A DNA stretch of 64,000 nt from Paludibacter sp. (GTDB taxonomy: Bacteria; Bacteroidota; Bacteroidia; Bacteroidales; Paludibacteraceae). Made by a program: the position numbers and the translations under genes. The stretch is taken from assembly GCA_024710005.1 (NCBI GenBank), contig JANJVQ010000020.1, positions 1-64,000 on the forward strand, in the 5' to 3' direction. The notes below the pieces were generated by a model. The model had not been told where the DNA came from, ran no database searches, and worked only from the letters and a program-made list of their open reading frames with translations. Positions within the stretch are counted from its first letter, which is position 1. Each line of letters opens with the position of its first letter. Shown here in pieces: positions 690 to 15,341 of the stretch.

Positions 690-2435
690 TTATTCAGCAT
701 TTTCATACCCGGGATTTTGCTGATACAAACCACCGGAAAAATTAATCTGGGCCTGCGGAATAGGGAAATACTCATCTTTTCCGGCAGTAAACCGTGTTTC
801 ATCATTGAAATATGTTCTGAGCGTTTTTTCTGTGCTGATATAATCATTAATGGTTTCAGCTGCAACTCCCCAACGTACCAAATCAAAGAAGCGTTCTCCT
901 TCCATTGCCAGCTCCAGTTTCCTTTCAAAACGAAGCGCCTTTCGGGCATACTCCTGTGTCCAGATACAATTTACGCCATCATTATACTCATCAATTACAT
1001 AATTTGCGGCATTTACAGCTGAGTTGAGTTTTTTAACATAATTACTGTTTTTTGCTCTTTTTCTGACTTGATTTATCAAAGGCAAAGCCTCGTTTTGGCG
1101 CCCGAGTTCAATCAAAGCTTCTGCTTTCCACAACAGGACATCAGCATAGCGGATTATCTGGAAGTTTAACGCACTGGCTCCCCACGGCCAGCCTTTTACC
1201 ATATAGGGAGATCCTGGTCCCACAACAAATTTTTTACAACTATATTGTCCGTATGTAGCAGGTTCCCTCGACCATCTTTCATCATAATTTCTGGTGTAAT
1301 TTTTCCAGGGAATACCTAAACGACCCACTGTGAAGTCAAGTCTGGGATCAATATTATACAAGAAACCATCTGTAGCTTTCAGTATATTGCCGTTTTTATA
1401 GTTATCGAAGTCGGGAACACCGCCCGCAGTTGTTTTATAAGAGTTCACGAGATTCTGACTGGGCTGAAAGAATCCATCACCACCATATACCGGACCACGG
1501 GGGGTACATACCAGGTTACTCCAGTTGATTCTACCCAAATCGGTTCCATCTTCAATCGAATATTCAACACCAAAAACTGATTCAGCTCCGTGTTCATATT
1601 CTACCTCGGCCAATTGTTGAAAATCAGACAACAGCGAATAACCTCCGGCAGCTACCTGATCGCATAATGTAACAACTTCGCCCAACAAAGTCTGATCAAT
1701 TTCTGTAACCTGATTATTTACCGGATTCTGTTTGTAAGCTCTGTACAAGGTAACTTTAGCCTGATAAGCCAGCGCGGCATATTTTGTTACACGACCCACT
1801 TCCGGTTGTGTCGGTGGAAGCAATTCAGCAGCATCTTTAAATTCCTTAGCGATTTTTGCCAAAATCTCGTCTCTGGTAAATTCAACATTGGAAATATTGA
1901 TATAATCTTTGGTTTCAACATTCTCATCAAAATAAGGAATCTTGTTAAATAGCCTGCTCAGTTCGAAGAAATAATGAGCTCGCAGGAAGCGCATTTCTCC
2001 CAAACGGACATTCTTCAATGGTACGTCTTCAACACTTACTTCGTTCAGTCTTCTGATTGCACTATTCGCCCTTTGCACACTGATATACATATGAAACCAT
2101 TTACGATCCAGCAATCCATTCGTTGCATATACCCCGGTAAAAGTTTCAAAGGCATGAAATTCCCAGATGTCTGAAATACCACCACCACCTTTATATGCTG
2201 TTTCGGCGCGGACATCGCCATAGATCCAATTGTTTGTCGGAGAAAGAAAGGCTAAATCATTCCCTTCGGGTCCGGCTAAAGCTGCATATGCCGACGTACA
2301 TAAGGCATCGATTGCAGCCGGAGTACTTAAAATTTCATCGCTGAGTTTCCCTTGCGGCTTTGAATCCAGAAAATCATCACTACAAGCGAAGACTCCGAGG
2401 ATTAATATCATTAATGTTACTAATTTAAATTTCAT
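690..2435 (-). CDS. SusD/RagB-family nutrient-binding outer-membrane lipoprotein
   Basis: A 581-residue SusD homologue: signal peptide, lipobox Cys18 ([16 protein letters not shown]), TPR-like helical N-terminal half, and the family C-terminal block with ERxLELAxEGxRxxDLVRWG followed by YFPIPQAQI near the end. SusD proteins cap the SusC barrel and bind glycan at the cell surface. It lies 12 bp downstream of the SusC gene and is flanked by GH32 genes, so the ligand is inferred to be a fructan. Family assignment is secure; the ligand is inference from neighbours. Confidence 0.96.
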
Positions 2436-2447
2436 GACTGTCTGCTT

Positions 2448-5400
2448 TTAAAAGTTAAAATTAAATCCGAAAGTAAATGTACGGGGTAAAGGATAAGGAT
2501 ATCCTAATCCTTCGGGATCGGCTCCGGTATATTTCGTAATTGTCAGCAAATCCTGACCCTGCAAATAGAATCGGATACTGGATGCTCCGAGTTTCTCTGA
2601 GACTTTTTTCGGCACACTATATCCAATTTGAATATTTTTCAATTTTACATAGGAACCATCTTCAATAAAATATTCAGAGGTACGGTTTTCTTCATTGGTA
2701 TTCACTGCTGTCAAAGCCGGAATGTTCGAATCCGGATTTGTAACCGGATCAAATGCATTTAACAAAGCTGTTCCATGATTCCCTGTCCATAACTGGAAGA
2801 AATCAGTGTAGAACTTCGAATTATTCCAGGCTTTTCTTACTATACCATTCCAGAACATGGAAAAATCAAAAGATTTATAATTGACCGCAACATTCAATCC
2901 ACCTACAAATTTCGGTAAATCTGTACCCAACCAGGTTCTGTCCTTGTCATTTATTATGCTATCATTATTCAAATCAACGTATCTGATTCGACCGATTCCT
3001 TTACCTGGTTGACTGATTCCATCGTTCAGCTCGTCATCTGTTTTATAAATTCCGTTTGTTTTATATCCCATCCATGAACCAAGCGGTTGTCCAACAATAC
3101 TTTTATCAATTCCATTACCACCTCCCCAGGTATAATAAATATCTTCGGGAAGATCAGTGATCACGTTCTTGTAAGCAGTTCCTGTGAAGGACACTTCATA
3201 AGAAAAATCCTTATTCACAACATCGCGCCAGGTAACAGTACCTTCTATACCATTGTTTTTCAGAGAAGCTCCGTTATACGACATATAACCACCCTCCCCA
3301 ATCACGGCAATATACGGACGATCAATCAACATATCATCGGTTTTCTTGATGTAATAATCCAGGGTTAAAGTCAGTCTGTTTTTAAGCATAGCCAGGTCAA
3401 TCCCAACATTCGTTTGCGTCGTCACCTCCCACTTTATATCAGGATTACCTGAACGTTGTTTGATGATACCGTTATAGATTGTCCCCTGATTAATGCCGGC
3501 AAGGTCGTAACCGGCTGTTGTGAGATTAAACAAATACTTTGTATAGGTTGCCTCATTATCCATTTGATCATTCCCGTTTTGCCCCCAACTTGCTCTTATC
3601 TTCAGGTCTGACAACACATCAATTCCTTTCATAAAATCTTCCTCGGTAACCCTCCAACCTGCTGATACGGCAGGAAAATAGGCCGAGTTATTGTTGGCAC
3701 CAAATCTGGATGAAGCATCATTTCTGATAGTAGCCGAAAACAAATAACGATCATTGTAAGCATAATTCAATTTACCAAAATACGAAACCAGGGTTGTCCG
3801 GTCTTTCAGTCCACCATTTGTCTGTGTACCCTCGCCTGCACTCAAATAGCGATAATCCAACGATTCGACCAAATAGTCATCTCTCTGTGCATCCATAAAT
3901 TCATAGATTGTTTCTTTTGCTTCCATACCGGCAAATAAACTCACATTACTTTTATCGATACTAAAAGAATATGCGGCAGTATTCGACCAAATCCATTCCC
4001 TGTCGTAAGAAGATTTTACATATAATTTATTTTTGTCAACCACACGGCTGGAACCTTCAGACCATCTGGGTTCAAAATTTGACAGAAATTCATTGCGGTA
4101 GTTCAAACCAAAATTACTTTTCAGGACAAAATTTTTAACCGGTTCTATTTCCAGAAACACATTTCCGAAGATGCGCCATTGACTGAGACGATTATCCTTT
4201 TGCTGATCAAGTAAACGTACCGGATTGGGTTTGTCGCCCAGCCCCTGAGTCGGCCCGGCATATCCTCCATTGATATCATAAACCGGAATCAGCGGATGTT
4301 GAGCAATAGTCAGTTCCTCTATACCTCCTGGTTTAAGCACTTCCGACCAGTTACTTACATTCAGATTTTCCCCCAAACGAACCCTGTTTTTCAGAAAACT
4401 ATAGGTATTATTTAAACGAATATTAAATCGTTGGAAATTCGTGTATTTAATTAATCCATCCTGATCAAAAAAGTTAAATGAGAACAAGGAGGATGAATTA
4501 TCTGCAGCTGTTGCAACCGAGATATTATAATTTTGCAATAATGCTCTCTGATAAACCTGATCCGCCCAGTTTGTATCTCCTGCAGGCATCGTTTTATCAA
4601 TATCAATAAATTCCGGAATTACCGGAGTATCTCCATTTCCATATTGGTCATGACTTGGTTGCACCCCATCATTCTGATAAGCTTTCCAGTAAACATCACC
4701 CCATTGTTGTGCATTAAGCAGCGGAATGTTGGTGTGATATTGCTGTGTAGTAATCTGTCCATCAACATTTACCCTGGTTCCTTTTACTTTTCCTGATTTT
4801 TTAGTCGTGATAATGATTACCCCATTGGCTGCCTGTGTTCCATATATTGATGCTGATGCCGCATCCTTCAGAACCTGTATGGATTCTACATCATTCGCAT
4901 TCAAAAGCGTCGCGATATTAGCGCGTGTTTGCACACCGTCAATTACATACAACGGGGCACTATTGTTAATCGTTGTTACACCCCTGATGGTTGCGGCAGT
5001 AGAGGTTCCACCGGGCTGACCATCTGTCGTGATATTTACTCCCGGCAATCGTCCCTGTAAAGTTGACATGATATTACCTGTCGGGATACTACTCACATCA
5101 CTCAGTTTAACAACTGAAACGGCACCGGTAATTTCTGCTTTTTTCTCTGTCGTGTATCCGGTAACAACGATCTGATCCAGAAGAACTGCATCTGTATTCA
5201 AAACAACTTTGAGTTGTTTTTGTGTCCCGACTTTTATTTCCTGCATCTGCATCCCTACCATAGAGAACTGTAAAACAGCATCCTGAGATTTTACGGTAAT
5301 CGAAAAATTCCCGTCGAGATTGGTAATAACTCCATTTCGGGTACCCTTTTCAATCACGCTTACGCCAATAAGCGGTTGATTATCTTCCGATGATGTTACA

Positions 5401-5504
5401 ACACCACGCACTTCAACCTGCTGCGCCATCACGACGATCGAAAAGATCATTGAGAATAACAGTAGTAACTGTCGAAGTCTGATTTTTTTGTTTTGTCTTT
5501 TCAT
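2448..5504 (-). CDS. SusC/RagA-family TonB-dependent fructan importer
   Basis: A 1018-residue TonB-dependent receptor of the SusC type. In order: signal peptide (to about residue 27, VMAQQ), a carboxypeptidase-regulatory-like domain (about 30-115, VRGVVTSSEDNQPLIGVSV), the plug with the SusC signature (GRLPGVNI, then DPLYVIDGV-like APLYVIDGVQT, then IYGTQAANGVIIITTK), and a 22-strand barrel ending in the aromatic C-terminal FTFGFNFNF. It would import oligosaccharides released by the surface GH32 enzymes. It is followed by SusD after 12 bp and preceded by a GH32 gene after 36 bp, so these are probably cotranscribed. Confidence 0.97.
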   Translation of the reverse strand: MKRQNKKIRLRQLLLLFSMIFSIVVMAQQVEVRGVVTSSEDNQPLIGVSVIEKGTRNGVITNLDGNFSITVKSQDAVLQFSMVGMQMQEIKVGTQKQLKVVLNTDAVLLDQIVVTGYTTEKKAEITGAVSVVKLSDVSSIPTGNIMSTLQGRLPGVNITTDGQPGGTSTAATIRGVTTINNSAPLYVIDGVQTRANIATLLNANDVESIQVLKDAASASIYGTQAANGVIIITTKKSGKVKGTRVNVDGQITTQQYHTNIPLLNAQQWGDVYWKAYQNDGVQPSHDQYGNGDTPVIPEFIDIDKTMPAGDTNWADQVYQRALLQNYNISVATAADNSSSLFSFNFFDQDGLIKYTNFQRFNIRLNNTYSFLKNRVRLGENLNVSNWSEVLKPGGIEELTIAQHPLIPVYDINGGYAGPTQGLGDKPNPVRLLDQQKDNRLSQWRIFGNVFLEIEPVKNFVLKSNFGLNYRNEFLSNFEPRWSEGSSRVVDKNKLYVKSSYDREWIWSNTAAYSFSIDKSNVSLFAGMEAKETIYEFMDAQRDDYLVESLDYRYLSAGEGTQTNGGLKDRTTLVSYFGKLNYAYNDRYLFSATIRNDASSRFGANNNSAYFPAVSAGWRVTEEDFMKGIDVLSDLKIRASWGQNGNDQMDNEATYTKYLFNLTTAGYDLAGINQGTIYNGIIKQRSGNPDIKWEVTTQTNVGIDLAMLKNRLTLTLDYYIKKTDDMLIDRPYIAVIGEGGYMSYNGASLKNNGIEGTVTWRDVVNKDFSYEVSFTGTAYKNVITDLPEDIYYTWGGGNGIDKSIVGQPLGSWMGYKTNGIYKTDDELNDGISQPGKGIGRIRYVDLNNDSIINDKDRTWLGTDLPKFVGGLNVAVNYKSFDFSMFWNGIVRKAWNNSKFYTDFFQLWTGNHGTALLNAFDPVTNPDSNIPALTAVNTNEENRTSEYFIEDGSYVKLKNIQIGYSVPKKVSEKLGASSIRFYLQGQDLLTITKYTGADPEGLGYPYPLPRTFTFGFNFNF

Positions 5505-5540: not shown

Positions 5541-7781
5541 TTATTTTATAAGTATTTTTTTTACAACTACATGTTCATTTGCAATAATTCTGACAATGTA
5601 AACTCCTGGCTTAACTATCCTGTTTAGCATTATCTTATTGGGTGACAACTTTTTTTTTATAATTTCTTTTCCTTCCATATTCATCACACTGACATCCATG
5701 GCCCCTGCGATTCCGGTTACTGATATCAAGTGATGCTCATCTACTGTTACATCTATCTTTTCCACTTCTTGCTGCATTTCACGAACATCTGTTGTATTGT
5801 TCCAGATAGAATTCAACTTCCAACCCTCGAATGCAGATAAATTTGTAGTGCCTCCATTTGAAAACAATTCAATATCGGTTGCATCCGCAGCGGGAAACAT
5901 TAATGACGAAATTACATTTTCCCCATCGTTAATAAAGATTTCTATTGTCGACTCATCAACAAAAACATGAAATTTTAATTGCGATGATTTATTCTTTACC
6001 GGAATATACAAACGCTTTGGAAATCTGTCGCTAAAAGATACATTTCCTGATTGTGTACGGTCAAAATAAACATTTGAGGTGGCTGCGTTATACCCCAATA
6101 CAACTTTGTACATTCTTTTCGCACAGAAATTGATTCCAAAATCCTGATTCATTTCTCCTGTTAAATCAAATGTGAATTTAGCTTCGTATACATTTCTTGC
6201 CGGTTTAAAGTCATCAAACAATTGAGTACCTGTTACCGGTTTATTTTCAACAGATACCCGCTCCTTTCTAAGCGATTCAAATCCTTTGAAAGGGCGCTGA
6301 ATCATGACAAATCCTTTTTCCGACGCTTTCAGTTCAATTTCGCGCGGCAACGACTGGACACCTCTCCAGGGAGCAGTAGGAGTTACAGTGGCGTATTCCC
6401 AGTTACTCATCCAGGCTTGCCACAAAGGCTGGGAATTTGAATCATCATAATCACGATACGGACGGACAGCATAAAAATCGGGGCCCCAATCACCCCACAA
6501 AGCATGCTCAAGTCCTGTGTTAATAAGCACATCTGAAAACATGATCTGATCAATTAGAATATGTCCCCAGCTTCCTGTGCTTTCATCCACAATTTCAATT
6601 ACAGCGTCTTTTCCAAGAAACTCACTTACATTCCACCCTTTCCATCTCAACGACTCGAAATTATCGCCTGCAGCCCTTCTGACTATTTGCCCGTCCACAA
6701 TTAAACGGGCACAAGTTAAATCAAGGTTATTTCCACCACCAATCAGGAAATTTATGTTATTTTTTTCAATTTTGAACGGCGAAGAAATCATTTTACCGGT
6801 ATTCCCATCACCCGCGTGATACGAATTCACTAATTTACCTCCTATATAACCAGAAACTGACATTTGATTCTCCAGTGTTCCATTTGCCGGAGCACTTCCA
6901 AATGCATTTCCCTCTACACGCCATCCATCAAAGTTATTTTTCTCAAACGATTCAAAGACAACGCCATCTATCCCTGTTCCATGGTGTAAATGTGATTCAC
7001 ACAAAGGATCTAAGGTAAAATTTGTCCCATTAAAATTTCCGACAAAGTATTCAGCTTTATTGGGTCCCATCCCTACAATCAACACCCACTTCTTAGCATC
7101 ATTATTTCCATTTACGGGTAATTGTACCATGCTTGATACCTCCCAGATTTCCTGACGGGCAGCCACAGGACCGAATGAACTCAGATAATCCCATTTTTTG
7201 AGGTCTTGTGAAGCATAAAAAAGCACCTTTCTTTCATCCGCGAGGACAATATTCATAATCCATCTTTTTGTTGATTCATGCCAAATGACATCCGGATCAC
7301 GAAATGAATTGCTGTTTATGTCCAGAACAGGATTCCCCTGATAATACTGAAATCTATTATAATTTACATCATCTGAATTACAGTAAGATATAGACTGATT
7401 CTGTAATCCCGTAGGTTGGGCAGATGTATAGATTGCAACCATGGGAACTTTAGCTCTCGTGTTGAAACCTGCCGTGTTGTTTGTATCCACCACTATTGAA
7501 CCTGTAAAATAACTGAAACCTGTTCCCCCGAGCATTGGCCAGTCCAGTTGTTTCCAATGGACTAAATCGGTAGAAATTGCGTGCCCCCACCAAAAAAAGT
7601 GATATTTACCATCGTACTTTGTTAATCCACAGGGATCTCCAATCCAGCCATCCTTTGCAGTAAAATGATACTGAGGGCGGTACAATTCATTGTAAAATTC
7701 CTGTGCATGGATTACTGTAAGCATAAACGACATTATGCCGGCAATACTACACAAAATAACCCTATGTAATGATTTTATCAT
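5541..7781 (-). CDS. Secreted GH32 enzyme with inserted beta-sandwich and T9SS sorting domain
   Basis: A 746-residue secreted GH32 enzyme. Signal peptide to about residue 26. The nucleophile motif reads WIGDPCG (Asp49) instead of WMNDPNG; the RDP motif is present (Asp162) and the acid/base Glu214 lies in WEVSS. The usual FFQxNP...W loop between the nucleophile strand and WGHA is absent (HFFWWGHAIS). Residues about 285-425 form an inserted domain (FDGWRVEGNAFG, GGKLVNSYHAGDG, HILIDQIMF) seen in levanase-type GH32 proteins. The C-terminal 65 residues match a T9SS type A sorting domain (GVYIVRI, then KKILIK). Expected role: surface or secreted fructan hydrolysis. The family is sure; activity and linkage are inferred. 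Confidence 0.93.
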   Translation of the reverse strand: MIKSLHRVILCSIAGIMSFMLTVIHAQEFYNELYRPQYHFTAKDGWIGDPCGLTKYDGKYHFFWWGHAISTDLVHWKQLDWPMLGGTGFSYFTGSIVVDTNNTAGFNTRAKVPMVAIYTSAQPTGLQNQSISYCNSDDVNYNRFQYYQGNPVLDINSNSFRDPDVIWHESTKRWIMNIVLADERKVLFYASQDLKKWDYLSSFGPVAARQEIWEVSSMVQLPVNGNNDAKKWVLIVGMGPNKAEYFVGNFNGTNFTLDPLCESHLHHGTGIDGVVFESFEKNNFDGWRVEGNAFGSAPANGTLENQMSVSGYIGGKLVNSYHAGDGNTGKMISSPFKIEKNNINFLIGGGNNLDLTCARLIVDGQIVRRAAGDNFESLRWKGWNVSEFLGKDAVIEIVDESTGSWGHILIDQIMFSDVLINTGLEHALWGDWGPDFYAVRPYRDYDDSNSQPLWQAWMSNWEYATVTPTAPWRGVQSLPREIELKASEKGFVMIQRPFKGFESLRKERVSVENKPVTGTQLFDDFKPARNVYEAKFTFDLTGEMNQDFGINFCAKRMYKVVLGYNAATSNVYFDRTQSGNVSFSDRFPKRLYIPVKNKSSQLKFHVFVDESTIEIFINDGENVISSLMFPAADATDIELFSNGGTTNLSAFEGWKLNSIWNNTTDVREMQQEVEKIDVTVDEHHLISVTGIAGAMDVSVMNMEGKEIIKKKLSPNKIMLNRIVKPGVYIVRIIANEHVVVKKILIK

Positions 7782-7880: not shown

Positions 7881-9020
7881 TTACATTACAAACTTATGAG
7901 CTGCAAGGGGATTACCTCCTTTATCGGATATTTTAAGGATATACATTCCACCACTCAACGTAGAGACATCAACTCCTTCACGTATATTTTCACCATTGTA
8001 TACATGCAAAAGAGATCCATTCACATTATATAAACTTACTTTACCAATCTGGTCATTATGATCGATGGACAATACATTCTGATTTAATTTCAGCCTCATA
8101 CCTAATTCAATAACCGAATTGAGTCCCGAAACACTCCCTTTTAATTCGTCCAATGCATTTTTGGTTAGTCTGACTACATTAGCCTGATAGGGATTCGTAC
8201 CATTTTTAATTGCCCATTCATAACCTCCGACTCCAATCGTGATACAGGTTCCTTTATACACTTCTGTGGGTTTCCAGCGTGAAATAGCTGAACCAAAATA
8301 GTCCTGCACATGTCCCCAGGTACCCAAAGTAGTAACATTGTGAGTCGATTCCCAGGTAGTCAGTTTTGCTTCATTATCATTAGGTAAACCTGCATCAGCA
8401 ATATCCATGGTCCAGAAACAGTTGTGGTCTTCTTTCCATCCAGCACCAATTAATGGTATTGTAGTGTATTGATTGCCATTGCCTCTTGTTACACTTTCAG
8501 TAGTCAGTCCTGCAAACAGAGGATCTGTCGACCTATCGAAAACGGTTTTTGCCGGATCCCAGGTTCCATAGGCTGTTGCCAATGACCATACGTCCGGATT
8601 CTCACCACCGGGACCTGCACCACCAACCACATTGGGCCACATATCTGTACGACCGAATTCATATAACAAGTTGTTGGCATAAATTGACAGTAATAAATTT
8701 CCTCCCGCTTTGTAATAGTCATTGAGCACCTCCGCAACCGCGTATATTGCATCCGGTGCATCGGCATAACCGCTTTCATTGTCGGCATAAATCCAGATTA
8801 CGCCATACTGTGAAAGATCAACGGTTCCAATCTGTGAAACAGGGATATAATCGCCACCATAGGTAGTTGTAAACCATTGTGCGGCCGCTTTTTCATCGTC
8901 ATCAGTAATTGCTGCTACAGATGCAGCAACATTTAAAAACCCTGCCTTTTTTGTACTGGCAGAAACAATTACGTTAAAAAATAAAACGCAAAGGATTAAA
9001 AGTAAATAATTTTTTTTCAT
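7881..9020 (-). CDS. DUF4960-like surface glycan-binding protein, T9SS cargo
   Basis: A 379-residue protein with a signal peptide (about 21 residues), one globular domain (about 25-290) and a C-terminal T9SS-type domain (about 300-379; GGMYILKI, then AAHKFVM). The domain carries DDDEKAAAQWF, a YKAGGNLLLSIYA block and WKEDHNCFW, shared with the next gene and with the N-terminus of the 1098-residue GH32 fusion. From memory it matches the Pfam family DUF4960, found in Bacteroides fructan loci where a family member serves as the surface levan-binding protein. No catalytic motif seen. Inferred role: fructan binding at the cell surface. Confidence 0.8.
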   Translation of the reverse strand: MKKNYLLLILCVLFFNVIVSASTKKAGFLNVAASVAAITDDDEKAAAQWFTTTYGGDYIPVSQIGTVDLSQYGVIWIYADNESGYADAPDAIYAVAEVLNDYYKAGGNLLLSIYANNLLYEFGRTDMWPNVVGGAGPGGENPDVWSLATAYGTWDPAKTVFDRSTDPLFAGLTTESVTRGNGNQYTTIPLIGAGWKEDHNCFWTMDIADAGLPNDNEAKLTTWESTHNVTTLGTWGHVQDYFGSAISRWKPTEVYKGTCITIGVGGYEWAIKNGTNPYQANVVRLTKNALDELKGSVSGLNSVIELGMRLKLNQNVLSIDHNDQIGKVSLYNVNGSLLHVYNGENIREGVDVSTLSGGMYILKISDKGGNPLAAHKFVM

Positions 9021-9067: not shown

Positions 9068-10225
9068 CTATTTAATTAATTTATGTATTGTTTTTATAGC
9101 TCCTTTTGTTGTTTCAATAAGGTAAACTCCCACCGGCAAACCATCAATGCTGATTTCATGATGATCGTTTTTTATGCGGATAGAATGAATCAGGTTTCCA
9201 CTAATTGAATAGATGTTTGCCTGTGTGTTTTCAGAGAAATTCTCAAACTTTATTACATCGTTTGCAATTACGACGCTCGATTCATCCTGATTATTAAAAG
9301 CTAAGTTTGTGCTGATGCCCATTGGAGATAATTCATCCAACGCGTTTGTAGTAAGTTGTTCTATATTGGTTTGATACACGTTAGTCCCTGAATTCTGATT
9401 CCATTCATAAGAACCTATCCCTATCGTAATAGCTTTACCAACAAAATCTCCCTTTGCATTCCAACGTGTTACTGCCGAGCCAAAATAATCCTGTACATGC
9501 GCCCAGGTCGCCAATGAATTTGTTGACCATACATTTTCAAAATCAATCTGTTTATATTTATCATTATTTGCTTTATCGGGTTGAGGATTCCAGAAATAAT
9601 TATGGTCTTCCTTCCATCCGGCACCTAAAAAAGGAATTATCGGATAAATATTTCCATTATCTCGGGTAACATAACTTACTCCGGTCATTCCATCATAAAG
9701 GGGATCAGTAAATTTGTTAAACACCTCAGGTGTACCCACGAAAGTACCCCAGGTGGGAGATGCGTACCAAACATCCGGATTATTTCCTCCATTTCCGAAA
9801 CCTTTCAGTTCAACAGCCAAATCATAACGGCCCAAATCAACTACATAACGTGTTGCATAAATTGAAAGCAACAAATTTCCGCCAGCTTTATAAAAATCAT
9901 TGATGGCCGTTTTCACATCAGCATCAAGGAATGCAGCGGCAAATTCATTATTGATTGTTGTTTCATCCGACTGACGATCGAAATGTATCCACAGCGCTTT
10001 GTAATCTGACAAATCTGCTGTATTATCTTTAATTTGAGAAACAGGGAGAAATACCCCACCATAGGTATTAACCAGCCAGTTGGCAGCAGCGTATTCATCA
10101 TCATCACCGCTGTTTTGAAGATCATTTAATGTTGCAAAAGTGCTTACAAAAGCTACTTTTGAGGGCTGAGCAATGAGACTAATGCTCACAATACACACTA
10201 AAAAGAGTAATAATGTTTTTTTCAT
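9068..10225 (-). CDS. DUF4960-like surface glycan-binding protein, T9SS cargo (paralogue)
   Basis: A 385-residue paralogue of the gene just downstream: signal peptide ending near AQP at residue 21, the same DUF4960-like domain (DDDEYAAANWL, YKAGGNLLLSIYA, WKEDHNYFW, DYFGSAVTRW), then a T9SS sorting domain (GLPVGVYLIETTKG and terminal IHKLIK). It lies 47 bp from its paralogue and 51 bp after the GH32 fusion gene, consistent with tandem duplication inside one transcription unit. Differences between the paralogues fall mainly in loops, which would fit different fructan chain lengths or linkages, but that is speculation. Confidence 0.8.
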   Translation of the reverse strand: MKKTLLLFLVCIVSISLIAQPSKVAFVSTFATLNDLQNSGDDDEYAAANWLVNTYGGVFLPVSQIKDNTADLSDYKALWIHFDRQSDETTINNEFAAAFLDADVKTAINDFYKAGGNLLLSIYATRYVVDLGRYDLAVELKGFGNGGNNPDVWYASPTWGTFVGTPEVFNKFTDPLYDGMTGVSYVTRDNGNIYPIIPFLGAGWKEDHNYFWNPQPDKANNDKYKQIDFENVWSTNSLATWAHVQDYFGSAVTRWNAKGDFVGKAITIGIGSYEWNQNSGTNVYQTNIEQLTTNALDELSPMGISTNLAFNNQDESSVVIANDVIKFENFSENTQANIYSISGNLIHSIRIKNDHHEISIDGLPVGVYLIETTKGAIKTIHKLIK

Positions 10226-10276: not shown

Positions 10277-13200
10277 TTAATTTTTGAATACTTTCTTTAT
10301 ACGGCTGGAATTCTCAGTATTTATCTGAATCAGATAGATATTCTTTTCAGCCAGATTAGCCCCGGTATATGACTCAGGATAAACATTTCCGGCTAATACC
10401 CGTCCCAGGGAATCATAAATATTTAGCGTTGCATTAACAGGCAAATTCTCGTAAATCAACTCATTATCAGAAAAATAAATATTGATTTTATCCTGAGAAC
10501 CGGGATTACTTATTCCTGTGGCATCTTTTGCAGAAAGTTTCCATGCTTTTACAGCGTTAACAAAAGTTTCCGTTCCCTCCGAAAAAACTTCGACACCATT
10601 TGATTCCGGATCAGTTGGAAAAATCCTGATTGAAAACGCACATCTGTTATTGATGAATATATCCATAATAGAATGATCAATAAACAAATGGATTTTACAG
10701 GTTTGTCCGACCGCTATTGACTCAGGTAGGGAGCTGACATACAAACCATTATACAGCCATCCATCATTTGACAACCGATTAATTGATCGGGCATCAACCG
10801 TAAAAAGGTTTCTTGCCGGTTCATAAAAGATTTTAACTGCATTAAGGCCACTTTTGCGTACATTAAATCCAAATTTCTGATCCTGATGAGATGAGACAGT
10901 GAAAATGCCTTCAATCTCCACAGCTTTTCCGTTAACCGGCTCCATTGACTGTTCACCTAACAGGCTATGATTAACCATATTATACGAAGCCGCATTAGCC
11001 CTCATATTTCTCAAACCATCGTACGGACTTTGAATCAGGTTATTATTCGCATCCAACGACCATTCGCGTGGCAAATTAAAAGTATGTGCCCAACCCAGCT
11101 TCCGGTTATCATCACCACCCAGTTTGTCAGGTACGATTCCGATTACAATATTTTTTCCGTCTTTTTGCATTACAGAGGGTGATAGCAGGCCAAACCCATC
11201 TTTCGACATATTTCCTAATTCCACTTCTTTGGGCGCATGCGTATATGGATTAAAAGTGCCATCCTGATTAATCGTACCTACCCAATATAAAGTCTCAACC
11301 CCGTTTTTAGCACCCAATGGTGTTGCAACAAATAACCATTTCCCATCAGACATAGGAACAACTACCGGCATTTCCCAGAATACACCATAATCGGTACTTG
11401 TAGCCTGATAAAAAATACGACCATCATTACTCCATGTTTTTGAGTTTACATCATATTGATGCAATGTTGCAGCACCTCTTCCTCCTTTTCTTGCTCCAAC
11501 CACCATATAGATAGTTCCGTTAGCCTTAAAAACATACGGATCGCGGAAATCTTCATCCAATCCGGACGGACGATGCGGAATAACCGGATTGGCTGCAACT
11601 TTCTCCCAGTTGATAAGGTTATTATCCAGGGGACGAGCTTCTGCAATTGAAGTTTTACCAAAATCTGCTGATGTATAATAAATGTATGGAAGTCCACCCG
11701 TTAGATCCGGATCTGAAAAGACACAGCCCGACCAGGCTCCTTTTATGTCATACCAGGAATCGGGTACAACCGCAGGCCTTTCCTCTTTCCAGGTGATTAA
11801 ATCTTCACTGGTAACATGTCCCCAGTGTATCCTGCCCCAATAAGGTCCGTTCCCGTTTTTCTGAAAGAAAAGATGATATTTGCCATTATGATAAATCAAA
11901 CCATGAGGTTCATTTGTCCAGTTTGCAGCCGGCATAGCGTGAAAAACCGGTCGTTGAATTTCATTTTCAAATCTGACTGTTGGTATTGAAAGATCGGCGG
12001 GGTTCTCGGGTATCAGTTTATTTTGTGTAAAGTCATGCTCTCCTGAATATATCCTGAAATCATCTATTAAACCATTAATGGTATTCAATCTGAAAGGCCC
12101 CACCCATCGATTCACATCATCATACGACTTTCCTATATAAAGTGCCGGCGAGCCCGGATTTAATTCGTTTGCCACAAAGCCTGATTTTGCTATCAACTCA
12201 TTGTTTTTATACAAAAGTATTTCACGTCTTCTTACGCTAACAACTGCAGCCAAATGCACCCACTCATATTTCGGAAATTTTTCAGGAGCATAACATTTCA
12301 CTTTCACTCCATTGATAAACATCTCGAAACCATATCTGCCATGTGTATTTATTGTAAATGCAAAGCCTGTTTCTGTAGTCATATTTCCGGCAATGTAGGT
12401 TTGTGTATCATCAACTCCATCGATGTGCATCATCGGATACGACTCCATGGCGCACCAAACTGAAGTCGATATTGCCTGAGAATCCAATTCTGTTACATTA
12501 AACCGACCTCTTATATAAGTAGAGAAACCGTCAAACCGCAAAGCATTACCCTCAGCACCCGGGATATTTTCTCTGATTGCTTTCGCATTATCAACCGTAA
12601 AAGTCCTGTTTGAGAGTATTTCTGTAATAGACGTTTTCGATTCATTTAACTCCATTGGGAAGTGTGCGACAAGTTTGGAGTCGACATCTACCGTATCAGT
12701 TACAATCTTATTGGTTGCCAGATATGACAATGCATTGGAAGTCAACCTCCTCAGATTTAATAAATACTCATTGGTTTTATCATTCTGATTCCATTCATAA
12801 GCTGCCAACCCAATAGCTAAACAATTTCCTTTATATTCGGCTGTGGGAAGAAACTCAACAATACCTGCACAGCAAAAATCAGTAACCTGCCCCCAGGTTC
12901 CTATTACCCGGGCATTATTTTCAGTTTCAAAAGCATTAACTACATTTCCGCTGTATCCATAGGAGTTTAAATCCCACATACTGTTATGATCTTCTTTCTG
13001 ACCTGAACCTATTAATGGGATTGTTGTATGGGTATAAATCGTATTATTTGTTGACAGTCCGGCGTAAACAGGATGTGTAATGTAATTATAAGTCATGCCG
13101 ATATTAGGATTAATACTCCATATATCCGCATTAAAATTCGAAGGACCAGCACCAATTATCGAAGGCCTTCTGGTTGTTCTTCCCAAATCAACGATATATT

Positions 13201-13573
13201 GCGTTGCGTGCACGGTCAATAACAAATTACCACCTTGTTTATAATAATCAGTCAGTTTGGTTTTAACATCTGAATCTTTCAAAATTGAAGGAATTGCACC
13301 GGTACCGTTTTCTTTATCAATATGTAGCCAGATGACTTTATACTGAGATAAATCAACTTCATTATTTTTTATGCCCGAAGTAGTTATAATGTCACCATTG
13401 GAATTAAACAAACTGAACCAGGTTGCGGCAGCTTTTTCATCATCATCTTCAATAGATTCAATATTATCGTAGCTTGTAATAAAAGCATATTTAACATCTG
13501 CTGATAATACTGAATTTGATATAGATAAAAAAAACAGAAAAAACAAAATAATAGAATTGAATGATGCTTTCAT
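10277..13573 (-). CDS. Multidomain DUF4960-LamG-GH32 protein with T9SS domain, Glu at nucleophile position
   Basis: A 1098-residue fusion. Signal peptide to about residue 25; DUF4960-like domain about 28-290 (DDDEKAAATWF, YKQGGNLLLTVHA, QKEDHNSMW); LamG/concanavalin-like domain about 305-510 (STYIRGRF, GLIDDFRIYSG); GH32 five-bladed propeller and C-terminal sandwich about 530-1010; T9SS sorting domain to the end (terminal RIKKVFKN). GH32 residues: NEPHG in place of NDPNG, so Glu555 replaces the usual nucleophile Asp (codon GAA, plus strand 11909-11911); RDP Asp678 and acid/base Glu734 (WEMP) are present. It may be a hydrolase variant or mainly a fructan-binding protein. It starts the second transcription block of the locus, below a paired operator. 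Confidence 0.9.
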   Translation of the reverse strand: MKASFNSIILFFLFFLSISNSVLSADVKYAFITSYDNIESIEDDDEKAAATWFSLFNSNGDIITTSGIKNNEVDLSQYKVIWLHIDKENGTGAIPSILKDSDVKTKLTDYYKQGGNLLLTVHATQYIVDLGRTTRRPSIIGAGPSNFNADIWSINPNIGMTYNYITHPVYAGLSTNNTIYTHTTIPLIGSGQKEDHNSMWDLNSYGYSGNVVNAFETENNARVIGTWGQVTDFCCAGIVEFLPTAEYKGNCLAIGLAAYEWNQNDKTNEYLLNLRRLTSNALSYLATNKIVTDTVDVDSKLVAHFPMELNESKTSITEILSNRTFTVDNAKAIRENIPGAEGNALRFDGFSTYIRGRFNVTELDSQAISTSVWCAMESYPMMHIDGVDDTQTYIAGNMTTETGFAFTINTHGRYGFEMFINGVKVKCYAPEKFPKYEWVHLAAVVSVRRREILLYKNNELIAKSGFVANELNPGSPALYIGKSYDDVNRWVGPFRLNTINGLIDDFRIYSGEHDFTQNKLIPENPADLSIPTVRFENEIQRPVFHAMPAANWTNEPHGLIYHNGKYHLFFQKNGNGPYWGRIHWGHVTSEDLITWKEERPAVVPDSWYDIKGAWSGCVFSDPDLTGGLPYIYYTSADFGKTSIAEARPLDNNLINWEKVAANPVIPHRPSGLDEDFRDPYVFKANGTIYMVVGARKGGRGAATLHQYDVNSKTWSNDGRIFYQATSTDYGVFWEMPVVVPMSDGKWLFVATPLGAKNGVETLYWVGTINQDGTFNPYTHAPKEVELGNMSKDGFGLLSPSVMQKDGKNIVIGIVPDKLGGDDNRKLGWAHTFNLPREWSLDANNNLIQSPYDGLRNMRANAASYNMVNHSLLGEQSMEPVNGKAVEIEGIFTVSSHQDQKFGFNVRKSGLNAVKIFYEPARNLFTVDARSINRLSNDGWLYNGLYVSSLPESIAVGQTCKIHLFIDHSIMDIFINNRCAFSIRIFPTDPESNGVEVFSEGTETFVNAVKAWKLSAKDATGISNPGSQDKINIYFSDNELIYENLPVNATLNIYDSLGRVLAGNVYPESYTGANLAEKNIYLIQINTENSSRIKKVFKN

Positions 13574-13642: not shown

Positions 13643-13650
13643 CAAAAATA
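13643..13650 (-). promoter_or_regulatory. Predicted -7 element of the downstream fructan operon
   Basis: On the minus strand the sequence reads TATTTTTG, matching the Bacteroidota -7 consensus TAnnTTTG, about 70 nt upstream of the start at 13573. No TTTG -33 element is found at 19-21 bp, which fits a promoter that depends on an activator bound at the adjacent dyads (13672-13708). Confidence 0.5.
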
Positions 13651-13671: not shown

Positions 13672-13708
13672 TGTAAAAAATGTTACATCTTCGTGTAATT
13701 TTGATACA
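13672..13708 (-). promoter_or_regulatory. Paired TGTA...TACA operator A
   Basis: Two dyads lie in tandem: TGTA-N8-TACA at 13672-13687 (16 nt) and TGTA-N7-TACA at 13694-13708 (15 nt), starts 22 bp apart. The same pair with the same sizes and spacing recurs at 15305-15341 upstream of the other block of the locus. Spacing of two helical turns suggests two dimers of one regulator on the same DNA face. The regulator gene is not in the window. Confidence 0.65.
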
Positions 13709-13712
13709 TTAA

Positions 13713-15254
13713 TTACCAGATACTATTAAATCGGCGGTATTTTAGGGAGGAAAAACCGGAACCAGTGTTTAATGACAGACTTACTTTATTGTAGATACTT
13801 TGCGGGAAGACCTGATTGCTGATTGAACGGGATCCATCATTTACAATGATTTCGATTGAAGATTGATCTACATAAATATCTAAAGTCGTTGAATCAGTTT
13901 CAGAGTAGAAAGGACATGAAAAAACACCGGGAAAATGATTGGAAAATGAAACTTTACCTGATTCACGGCGATCAAATACAATTTGGTGCTCAGGAACGTA
14001 GATTTTTACCTGACTCTGATCATTATTGTCGTTAACCAATGACAAGGTCAGAATCTGATTGTCTGACAAAGATGTGGTAAATTGCAAATGATATGCTTTC
14101 GGGTTATCCGGAATGCTGAAAGATTTTTCATCCGAACTGAGGACACCATGATAAAGTGTAGTCCATGCTGAACCAAAAGCATTGATTTCTGAAACGACTT
14201 CGTTATTTATGCTGAAGTTACCCTGTTCATTTTTCACAAGTGATAATGCTCTGGGTAAAGTCATGCTGCCTCTTGAAGCATTTCCTCCCGATGAGTATGT
14301 TGGTATGGCACCTGCATATTCCCAGTTGTTCATCCAGGCAATTTGAATTCTTCTACCGTCCTCTTCCGGGATATTATCCCAGGTGATACCGGCATAATTA
14401 TCTTTACCATAGTCGAGCCATAAGGGATATGAATATGGGTCCGCAATAAAGGTTACACCATTAAATTCCCCGATAAAATATTGTGTGCCTGATCCGCCAT
14501 TCGGAGCACCAGGATTAATGCTCACTAACAATATCCATTTTGTTTCATCTTCGAATTTTAACGGAAATAAATCCGGACATTCCCATACCCCACCATGAGC
14601 ACCAATGCCTGAACCAAATTCGCTCAATTTAGTCCACACCTTTAAATCGGGTGATTGATAAAAACTGATGGTTTGTCCGGTTGCCAGTGACATAATCCAT
14701 TGTTTCGCAGGCTCGTACCAAAAGACTTTGGGATCTCTGAAGTCAGGTCTTCCCGGGTTACTCAAAACCGGATTGTTTCTGTACTTAATAAATGACCGGC
14801 CTTTATCAGTACTGAATGCAATTGATTGATGCTGGGAACTTCCTGCTGATGTATAAATGGCTATCATCGCATCTTTACCGAATCCTGCCGTATTGTTTTT
14901 ATCTATCACAACACAACCTGAAAAAATATCCCCCAAAGCATCCGGTTTGAGCGCAACATTCAGTTGCTTCCAGTGGATCAAATCCGTGCTGACAGCATGT
15001 CCCCAACTCATGTAACCCCATCCGGAACCAAAAGGATTATGCTGAAAAAAGAGATGATATTCACCTTCGTGGTAAACCAAACCATTAGGGTCATTTATCC
15101 AGTTATACTTTGAGGAGAAATGTATTTGCGGACGAAACAAGCCACTATATCCCTTGTCAACAAGAATGTCCTTTTCTTCTTCTTTTATACAAGCATGAAG
15201 AAACACAACCAATAACAATACTATGTAAACGAAAAATCGATGTAATAACTGCAT
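13713..15254 (-). CDS. GH32 levanase/fructanase lipoprotein
   Basis: A 513-residue GH32 enzyme with all core motifs: WINDPNG with nucleophile Asp55, [21 protein letters not shown], and WECPDLF with the acid/base Glu; a C-terminal beta-sandwich follows (SVKIYVDxSSIEI-type block DIYVDQSSIEIIVNDG). The signal peptide ends in a lipobox at Cys22 (FLHAC) followed by Lys/Glu residues, so it is probably a surface or periplasm-facing lipoprotein. It is the promoter-proximal gene of the whole locus, with operator B upstream and operator A in the 139-bp gap after it. Exo- versus endo-action cannot be decided from sequence alone. Confidence 0.94.
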   Translation of the reverse strand: MQLLHRFFVYIVLLLVVFLHACIKEEEKDILVDKGYSGLFRPQIHFSSKYNWINDPNGLVYHEGEYHLFFQHNPFGSGWGYMSWGHAVSTDLIHWKQLNVALKPDALGDIFSGCVVIDKNNTAGFGKDAMIAIYTSAGSSQHQSIAFSTDKGRSFIKYRNNPVLSNPGRPDFRDPKVFWYEPAKQWIMSLATGQTISFYQSPDLKVWTKLSEFGSGIGAHGGVWECPDLFPLKFEDETKWILLVSINPGAPNGGSGTQYFIGEFNGVTFIADPYSYPLWLDYGKDNYAGITWDNIPEEDGRRIQIAWMNNWEYAGAIPTYSSGGNASRGSMTLPRALSLVKNEQGNFSINNEVVSEINAFGSAWTTLYHGVLSSDEKSFSIPDNPKAYHLQFTTSLSDNQILTLSLVNDNNDQSQVKIYVPEHQIVFDRRESGKVSFSNHFPGVFSCPFYSETDSTTLDIYVDQSSIEIIVNDGSRSISNQVFPQSIYNKVSLSLNTGSGFSSLKYRRFNSIW

Positions 15255-15304
15255 AAGACTCTTTTATTATGTGGACGAAGATATGCAAAACATCATCAAA
15301 CAAA

Positions 15305-15341
15305 TGTAACTCTGGATACATCTGCTTGTAATTTTGATACA
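15305..15341 (-). promoter_or_regulatory. Paired TGTA...TACA operator B
   Basis: Two dyads, TGTA-N8-TACA at 15305-15320 and TGTA-N7-TACA at 15327-15341, starts 22 bp apart, about 50 bp upstream of the first GH32 start at 15254. The second dyad (TGTAATTTTGATACA) is identical to that of operator A at 13694-13708. A weak -7-like ATGTTTTG follows on the minus strand at 15293-15286. Confidence 0.65.

Follow-up and report, generated by a model that had tools for sequence, protein, structure and literature searches.

Paired direct-repeat sites at two fructan promoters of Paludibacter sp. as predicted targets of a fructose-sensing hybrid two-component regulator

The two double sites preceding the fructan genes in the window, i.e. 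the 64,000-nucleotide stretch of Paludibacter sp. DNA analysed here (the initial 64 kb of contig C23), are in all likelihood activator sites of a fructose-sensing hybrid two-component protein (HTCS) of the BT1754/HTCS_Fru kind, predicted to be encoded beyond the left edge of the window at the distal end of the cluster. The best reading of the arrangement is that each promoter would bind one activated HTCS dimer overlapping the -33 region, and the paired sites are a clean new example of an already known form of gene control.

On the plus strand each double site, at 13672–13708 and 15305–15341, consists of a 16-nt and then a 15-nt TGTA...TACA element with starts 22 bp apart, and the second element, TGTAATTTTGATACA, is identical in both; the coordinates, the two lengths, the offset and the identical second dyad of the original prediction were all correct on re-check. 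The fructan genes are on the minus strand and the double sites are therefore better read on that strand, where both follow the formula TGTATCAAAATTACA-n6-TGTAWCn5TTACA. Promoter 1, before the DUF4960/GH32 gene with its ATG at 13573, reads TGTATCAAAATTACA-cgaaga-TGTAACATTTTTTACA, with the distal unit 1 at 13694–13708 (no mismatches to the family motif) and the proximal unit 2 at 13672–13687, the latter identical in the relatives G441 and G442. Promoter 2, before the GH32 gene with its ATG at 15254, reads TGTATCAAAATTACA-agcaga-TGTATCCAGAGTTACA, with unit 1 at 15327–15341, located by the pattern search, and unit 2 at 15305–15320, which has two differences in G441 and G442. The pattern TGTA-N8-TACA-N6-TGTA-N7-TACA is matched without mismatches by these two sites alone, in line with the claim that no such pair is present elsewhere in the window; the next matches have no fewer than three mismatches, and four are found in total with up to three (mean of shuffles 0.66). 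When the whole genome (3,242,810 bases in 36 contigs) was scanned with the stricter pattern TGTAWCN4TTACAN6TGTAWCN5TTACA, the two window sites were again the only ones with 0–2 mismatches, both having none, and there was one match with three mismatches, against one match for the reversed pattern used as a control. A matrix made from the sites of relatives only gives the window sites 54.7 and 29.4 bits, and the next-best position in the window -4.1.

The genes around the sites are all on the minus strand. Promoter 2 precedes a GH32 gene (13713–15254, Pfam Glyco_hydro_32N/32C) with the ATG 87 bp from the start of unit 1, and the first gene behind promoter 1 is a DUF4960-Laminin_G_3-GH32 gene (10277–13573, Pfam) with the ATG 135 bp from the start of unit 1. 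Downstream of it are two genes for probable DUF4960-type secreted proteins, assigned by resemblance (9068–10225 and 7881–9020), a GH32 gene with a secretion tail (5541–7781, by Pfam, the tail match being below the Pfam cut-off), the genes of a SusC-type TonB-dependent transporter (2448–5504) and a SusD-type lipoprotein (690–2435), both from the Pfam scan, and a GH32 gene truncated by the contig end (1–636), which in the close relative L039 is followed by transporter, fructokinase and HTCS genes. The SusC/SusD products of the window (690–5504) show 92–98% / 87–96% identity to those of L040/L039, about 40–44% / 36–46% to those of most of the family's remaining fructan loci, and 64% / 72% to those of G212 (L132), which belongs to another family of the order. 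As the identity is higher to this member of another family than to most fructan loci of the window's own, the SusCD block has probably been exchanged between lineages and placed under sites of the local type.

The HTCS gene is found outside the window at a contig end (G000:C15:957–3722, the same as L036:957–3722), and contig C15 starts with the adjoining gene of a pfkB-type kinase (fructokinase, 3–860). Its polypeptide contains Peripla_BP_4, HisKA, HATPase_c, Response_reg and HTH_18 domains by Pfam, and the sensor is of the periplasmic sugar-binding family (PF13407, PF00532) instead of the usual COG3292 type. The best PDB match of the sensor is 2x7x (a 'sensor protein' chain) over residues 26–338 with an E-value of 2.6e-97, which we take to be the fructose sensor of BT1754. 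The S/CHIP motif described as a mark of HTCS receiver domains (PMC11253607, in part) is present in the translation as ...STSHIPVML.... Contigs C23 and C15 are separate in the genome of the window, and their continuity is seen in L039, where a single contig matches the first 6 kb of C23 at 92% DNA identity and the first 4 kb of C15 at 87%, in the order GH32-SusC-SusD-GH32-transporter-fructokinase-HTCS, the transporter being of the Sugar_tr/MFS kind (Pfam). Since cluster, transporter, fructokinase and regulator share one contig there, the HTCS gene probably sits just past the left edge of the window. The activator had been proposed to be a hybrid two-component protein encoded outside the window, and the BT1754-type HTCS on C15, linked to the cluster in L039, supports this. 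In one relative a third copy of the site (L098:3141–3177) is located 228 bp before the HTCS gene itself, which suggests that the HTCS may drive its own synthesis in that genome, and in another the reading frame of the HTCS gene is broken in two (L047:9844–12621), by a frameshift or an assembly error.

Searching genome contigs with the HTCS protein as query yielded 29 loci, with the motif before their fructan genes. In relatives with homologous fructan loci the arrangement recurs, in most cases ahead of a GH32, SusC or DUF4960-type gene. Absence of the motif upstream of homologous loci had been named as the result that would tell against the original prediction; when this was looked into, the motif was conserved there. 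The HTCS is present at E <= 1e-150 in 26 of 150 family genomes, and the window-derived pattern with at most one mismatch is found in four of the 150, all of them among the 26. The refined pattern with at most three mismatches is found in 17 of the 150 genomes (two for the reversed control), 13 of them among the 26 with the HTCS and four among the 124 without it (G055, G071, G075 and G080; Fisher 9e-9), a count that is partly circular because the pattern came from HTCS loci, so that the window-derived pattern is the cleaner test. The loci behind both the refined pattern and the matrix were obtained through HTCS homology or with the pattern itself, the sites share ancestry, and many of the assemblies compared are draft metagenome bins. 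Where the HTCS identity is at least 59% a refined-pattern match is found in 13 of 14 genomes, G061 being the exception, and below 59% in none of 12; site and HTCS gene are on one contig in 10 of the 13 genomes. Six loci were fetched from the 13 HTCS genomes that have no refined-pattern match, and four of them (L111–L114) contain a drifted site, while the matrix scan gave no convincing site in L110 and L115, the latter having a weak one. When the search was widened beyond the family to 295 genomes of the order, the strict motif turned up in one of them, that of the window itself. In more distant HTCS loci a drifted form is seen solely with the matrix and the period search, by which no convincing site was found in L117–L120, L123–L125, L127, L131, L133 and L134.

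A different regulator encoded elsewhere, i.e. another HTCS or an unlinked AraC, LacI or Crp-type protein, is a quite improbable source of this pattern. The genome has 21 HTH_18 matches, and the site before SusC in L074 (G055) and the identical one in G075 (L075) are good double sites with a -7 at 21 bp in genomes where the HTCS_Fru matches are partial, at 34–39%, and a full-length match was not found; good sites together with these partial matches alone imply another regulator or a missing contig in these two genomes. Against such a regulator, the site occurs along with the HTCS_Fru gene, in most cases sharing a contig with it, a copy stands directly before the HTCS gene (L098:3177), and the genome has no further site with 0–2 mismatches. 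The refined-pattern matches in L073 and L084, from genomes without the HTCS, lack a -7 at 21 bp and look like chance.

When a score of at least 12 bits was required of the two units alone, all fetched loci together gave 44 distinct sites, and 2,951,212 positions of reversed sequence gave none. The first gene behind them is a GH32 gene in 18 cases, SusC in 11, a DUF4960-type gene in five and the HTCS gene itself in one, the remaining nine comprising seven other genes, one site with no gene found and the unrelated L073 site. The seven other genes encode two proteins with a CBM_4_9 match, a Sugar_tr transporter, a DUF2961 protein and three products with no informative match. The DUF2961 gene is preceded by the only site found in the relative G443 (L137:1501–1537); DUF2961 includes the GH172 difructose-dianhydride enzymes, which would fit a fructose regulon.

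The outer arms of both window sites do look palindromic, and the original prediction took them for the binding sites of two dimers, one per TGTA...TACA dyad. In addition to the TGTA/TACA arms of both window units, this unlikely alternative could draw on the outer 5 bp of unit 1, which are symmetric across relatives (6.8 bits), and on the TGTAAC...GTTAY units of more distant loci, which are also near-palindromic. However, in the matrix, which was built on 31 relatives' sites (leaving out the window sites, L073, L084 and the sites with four mismatches), the likeness of units 1 and 2 is greatest in the same orientation, over 14 columns, nine on the left with 11.3 bits and five on the right with 6.1 bits, whereas the arms within a dyad are alike when inverted mainly in their outer 5 bp, with 6.8 bits for unit 1 and 4.1 for unit 2. 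The inner bases and the greater part of unit 2 show less two-fold symmetry than the outer 5 bp of unit 1. Over the full length unit 1 scores -2.3 against its own reverse complement and unit 2 5.2 to 5.4, so that unit 2 keeps some symmetry, and the direct ungapped comparison of the two units scores 5.1. In the 31 relatives' sites unit 2 is usually TGnAACAAAwwTGACA and not a TGTA/TACA palindrome. Moreover, the linked regulator has an AraC-type domain, and no palindrome-binding regulator is seen among the listed genes of the L039 cluster. All 16 predicted HTCS motifs of Bacteroides in the account of Ravcheev and colleagues are direct repeats averaging 21 bp, interpreted there as sites of one dimer with both monomers on one face of the DNA (PMC3878776, in part), and by this published layout one dimer per promoter is more probable than the two of the original prediction. 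What the relatives share is more probably an asymmetric unit of 15/16 bp that recurs in one orientation with a 21-bp period than a pair of palindromes.

A motif-free search of 27 more distant HTCS loci for recurring 16-mers ahead of TAnnTTTG gave 21 as the commonest period, with seven counts at four distinct places (L122, L132, L135 and L136); period 15 had five counts, and the reversed control had none at 21 and four at 20. The period-21 repeats of these loci are TGTAACATTTGTTAT-like and located 21–22 bp from TAnnTTTG, and the resemblance suggests that such units may represent the drift of one site within HTCS_Fru loci.

The direct repeat with its 21-bp period also bears on the view, put forward in the original prediction as an alternative, that a SusR-like protein is the activator. 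SusR-like proteins also govern such loci and bind direct repeats, but their published repeats are 67 or 77 bp apart (PMC3878776, in part) against 21 bp start-to-start at both promoters here, and it is a fructose-type HTCS gene that is linked to the locus. The spacing thus practically rules out SusR-like sites.

The putative -7 element of promoter 1 is TATTTTTG (13643–13650, minus strand), with no mismatches to TAnnTTTG, and that of promoter 2 is TATCTTCG (15276–15283, minus strand), with one mismatch; both are located 21 bp past unit 2. The distance to the -7 had been thought to differ by about one helical turn between the two promoters, which does not hold, as it is 21 bp at both; the close relatives G441 and G442 retain the two promoters with unchanged spacing. 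Promoter 2 has, besides its imperfect -7, a unit 2 that is weaker than in most sites. For each of the 44 sites a TAnnTTTG-like sequence was sought 10–35 bp downstream, and of the 26 possible spacings the best match falls at 21 bp in 40 sites, at 22 bp in three and at 23 bp in one, the sole 23-bp site being that of L073, from a genome without the HTCS. A chance repeat or a functionless relic of a promoter duplication might come to mind, given that the intergenic DNA is AT-rich and that two promoters of one cluster could share ancestry, but with the fixed 21-bp spacing kept across genera though the DNA between the elements has diverged, this is hardly credible. Measured against the consensus of the primary sigma factor of Bacteroidota, with TAnnTTTG at -7 and TTTG near -33 (PMC7366714, in part), unit 2 would end near -32 and thus overlap the place of the -33 element.

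For BT1754, binding of fructose and a requirement for the protein in inducing its fructan locus are reported, as is DNA binding by an intact membrane HTCS (PMC3404733, in part), while the AraC-type domains are described as freed upon phosphorylation (PMC11253607, in part). In the proposed mechanism, fructose freed from fructans would bind the periplasmic sensor, upon which the kinase would phosphorylate the fused receiver domain, and in the membrane-tethered HTCS dimer each AraC-type DNA-binding domain would occupy one half of the direct repeat, a unit of 15/16 bp, with both units on the same face of the DNA as 21 bp corresponds to two helical turns. With the end of the proximal unit 21 bp before the -7, where a -33 element would lie, the bound dimer could bring in RNA polymerase in the manner of AraC-type class II activators. 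Promoter 2 would then drive one GH32 gene and promoter 1 the DUF4960/GH32/SusCD block, with read-through from promoter 1 perhaps reaching the transporter, the fructokinase and the regulator itself. The near-invariant 21 bp between the proximal unit and TAnnTTTG leads to a more tentative proposal, which we consider possible but somewhat less than an even chance, that the membrane-tethered HTCS dimer stands in for the -33 element and contacts the primary sigma factor of Bacteroidota in a fixed, class II geometry. In the literature on the BT1754 site and on HTCS transcription starts, as far as its text was covered here, no distance from an HTCS site to the -7 was found.

If this proposal is true, the rule unit-n(5-6)-unit-21 bp-TAnnTTTG might find HTCS-activated promoters and pairs of regulator and locus across the order without expression data. 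The analysis gives a testable assignment of regulator to promoter for a fructan cluster that is not from the well-studied gut genus and about 40 aligned natural variants of one predicted activator site with its promoter, and the fixed 21-bp spacing opens the activation geometry of a membrane-bound HTCS, on which little was found in print, to simple tests with spacing mutants.

Judged from its sequence, the locus fits the published HTCS class in every feature compared. The HTCS_Fru/BT1754 regulon of Bacteroides thetaiotaomicron likewise has a hybrid two-component protein with a sensor of the periplasmic-binding-protein type beside the fructan cluster, together with an inner-membrane transporter and a cytoplasmic kinase (PMC3878776 and PMC3404733, each in part), and its motifs belong to the direct repeats averaging 21 bp, the layout being the point of comparison with the sites here (PMC3878776, in part). 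The host of that regulon is from another family of the order, and the local unit here reads TGTATCAAAATTACA. The AraC-type domains of AraC at araBAD I1-I2 also bind a direct repeat about 21 bp apart whose proximal unit adjoins or overlaps the -35 region; AraC is a soluble arabinose-binding protein acting at a sigma-70 promoter, whereas the regulator here is a membrane-tethered kinase fusion and the promoter is of the Bacteroidota -33/-7 type. The HTCS_Man motifs of B. thetaiotaomicron share the start-to-start distance of 21 bp but have two 16-bp units with a 5-bp spacer, compared to a 15-bp unit 1 and a spacer of 6 here, and serve another sugar and another regulator (PMC3878776, in part). At the starch promoters of SusR, too, a Sus-type locus is preceded by direct-repeat activator sites, but with 67 or 77 bp between the units and a regulator from a different protein family (PMC3878776, in part).
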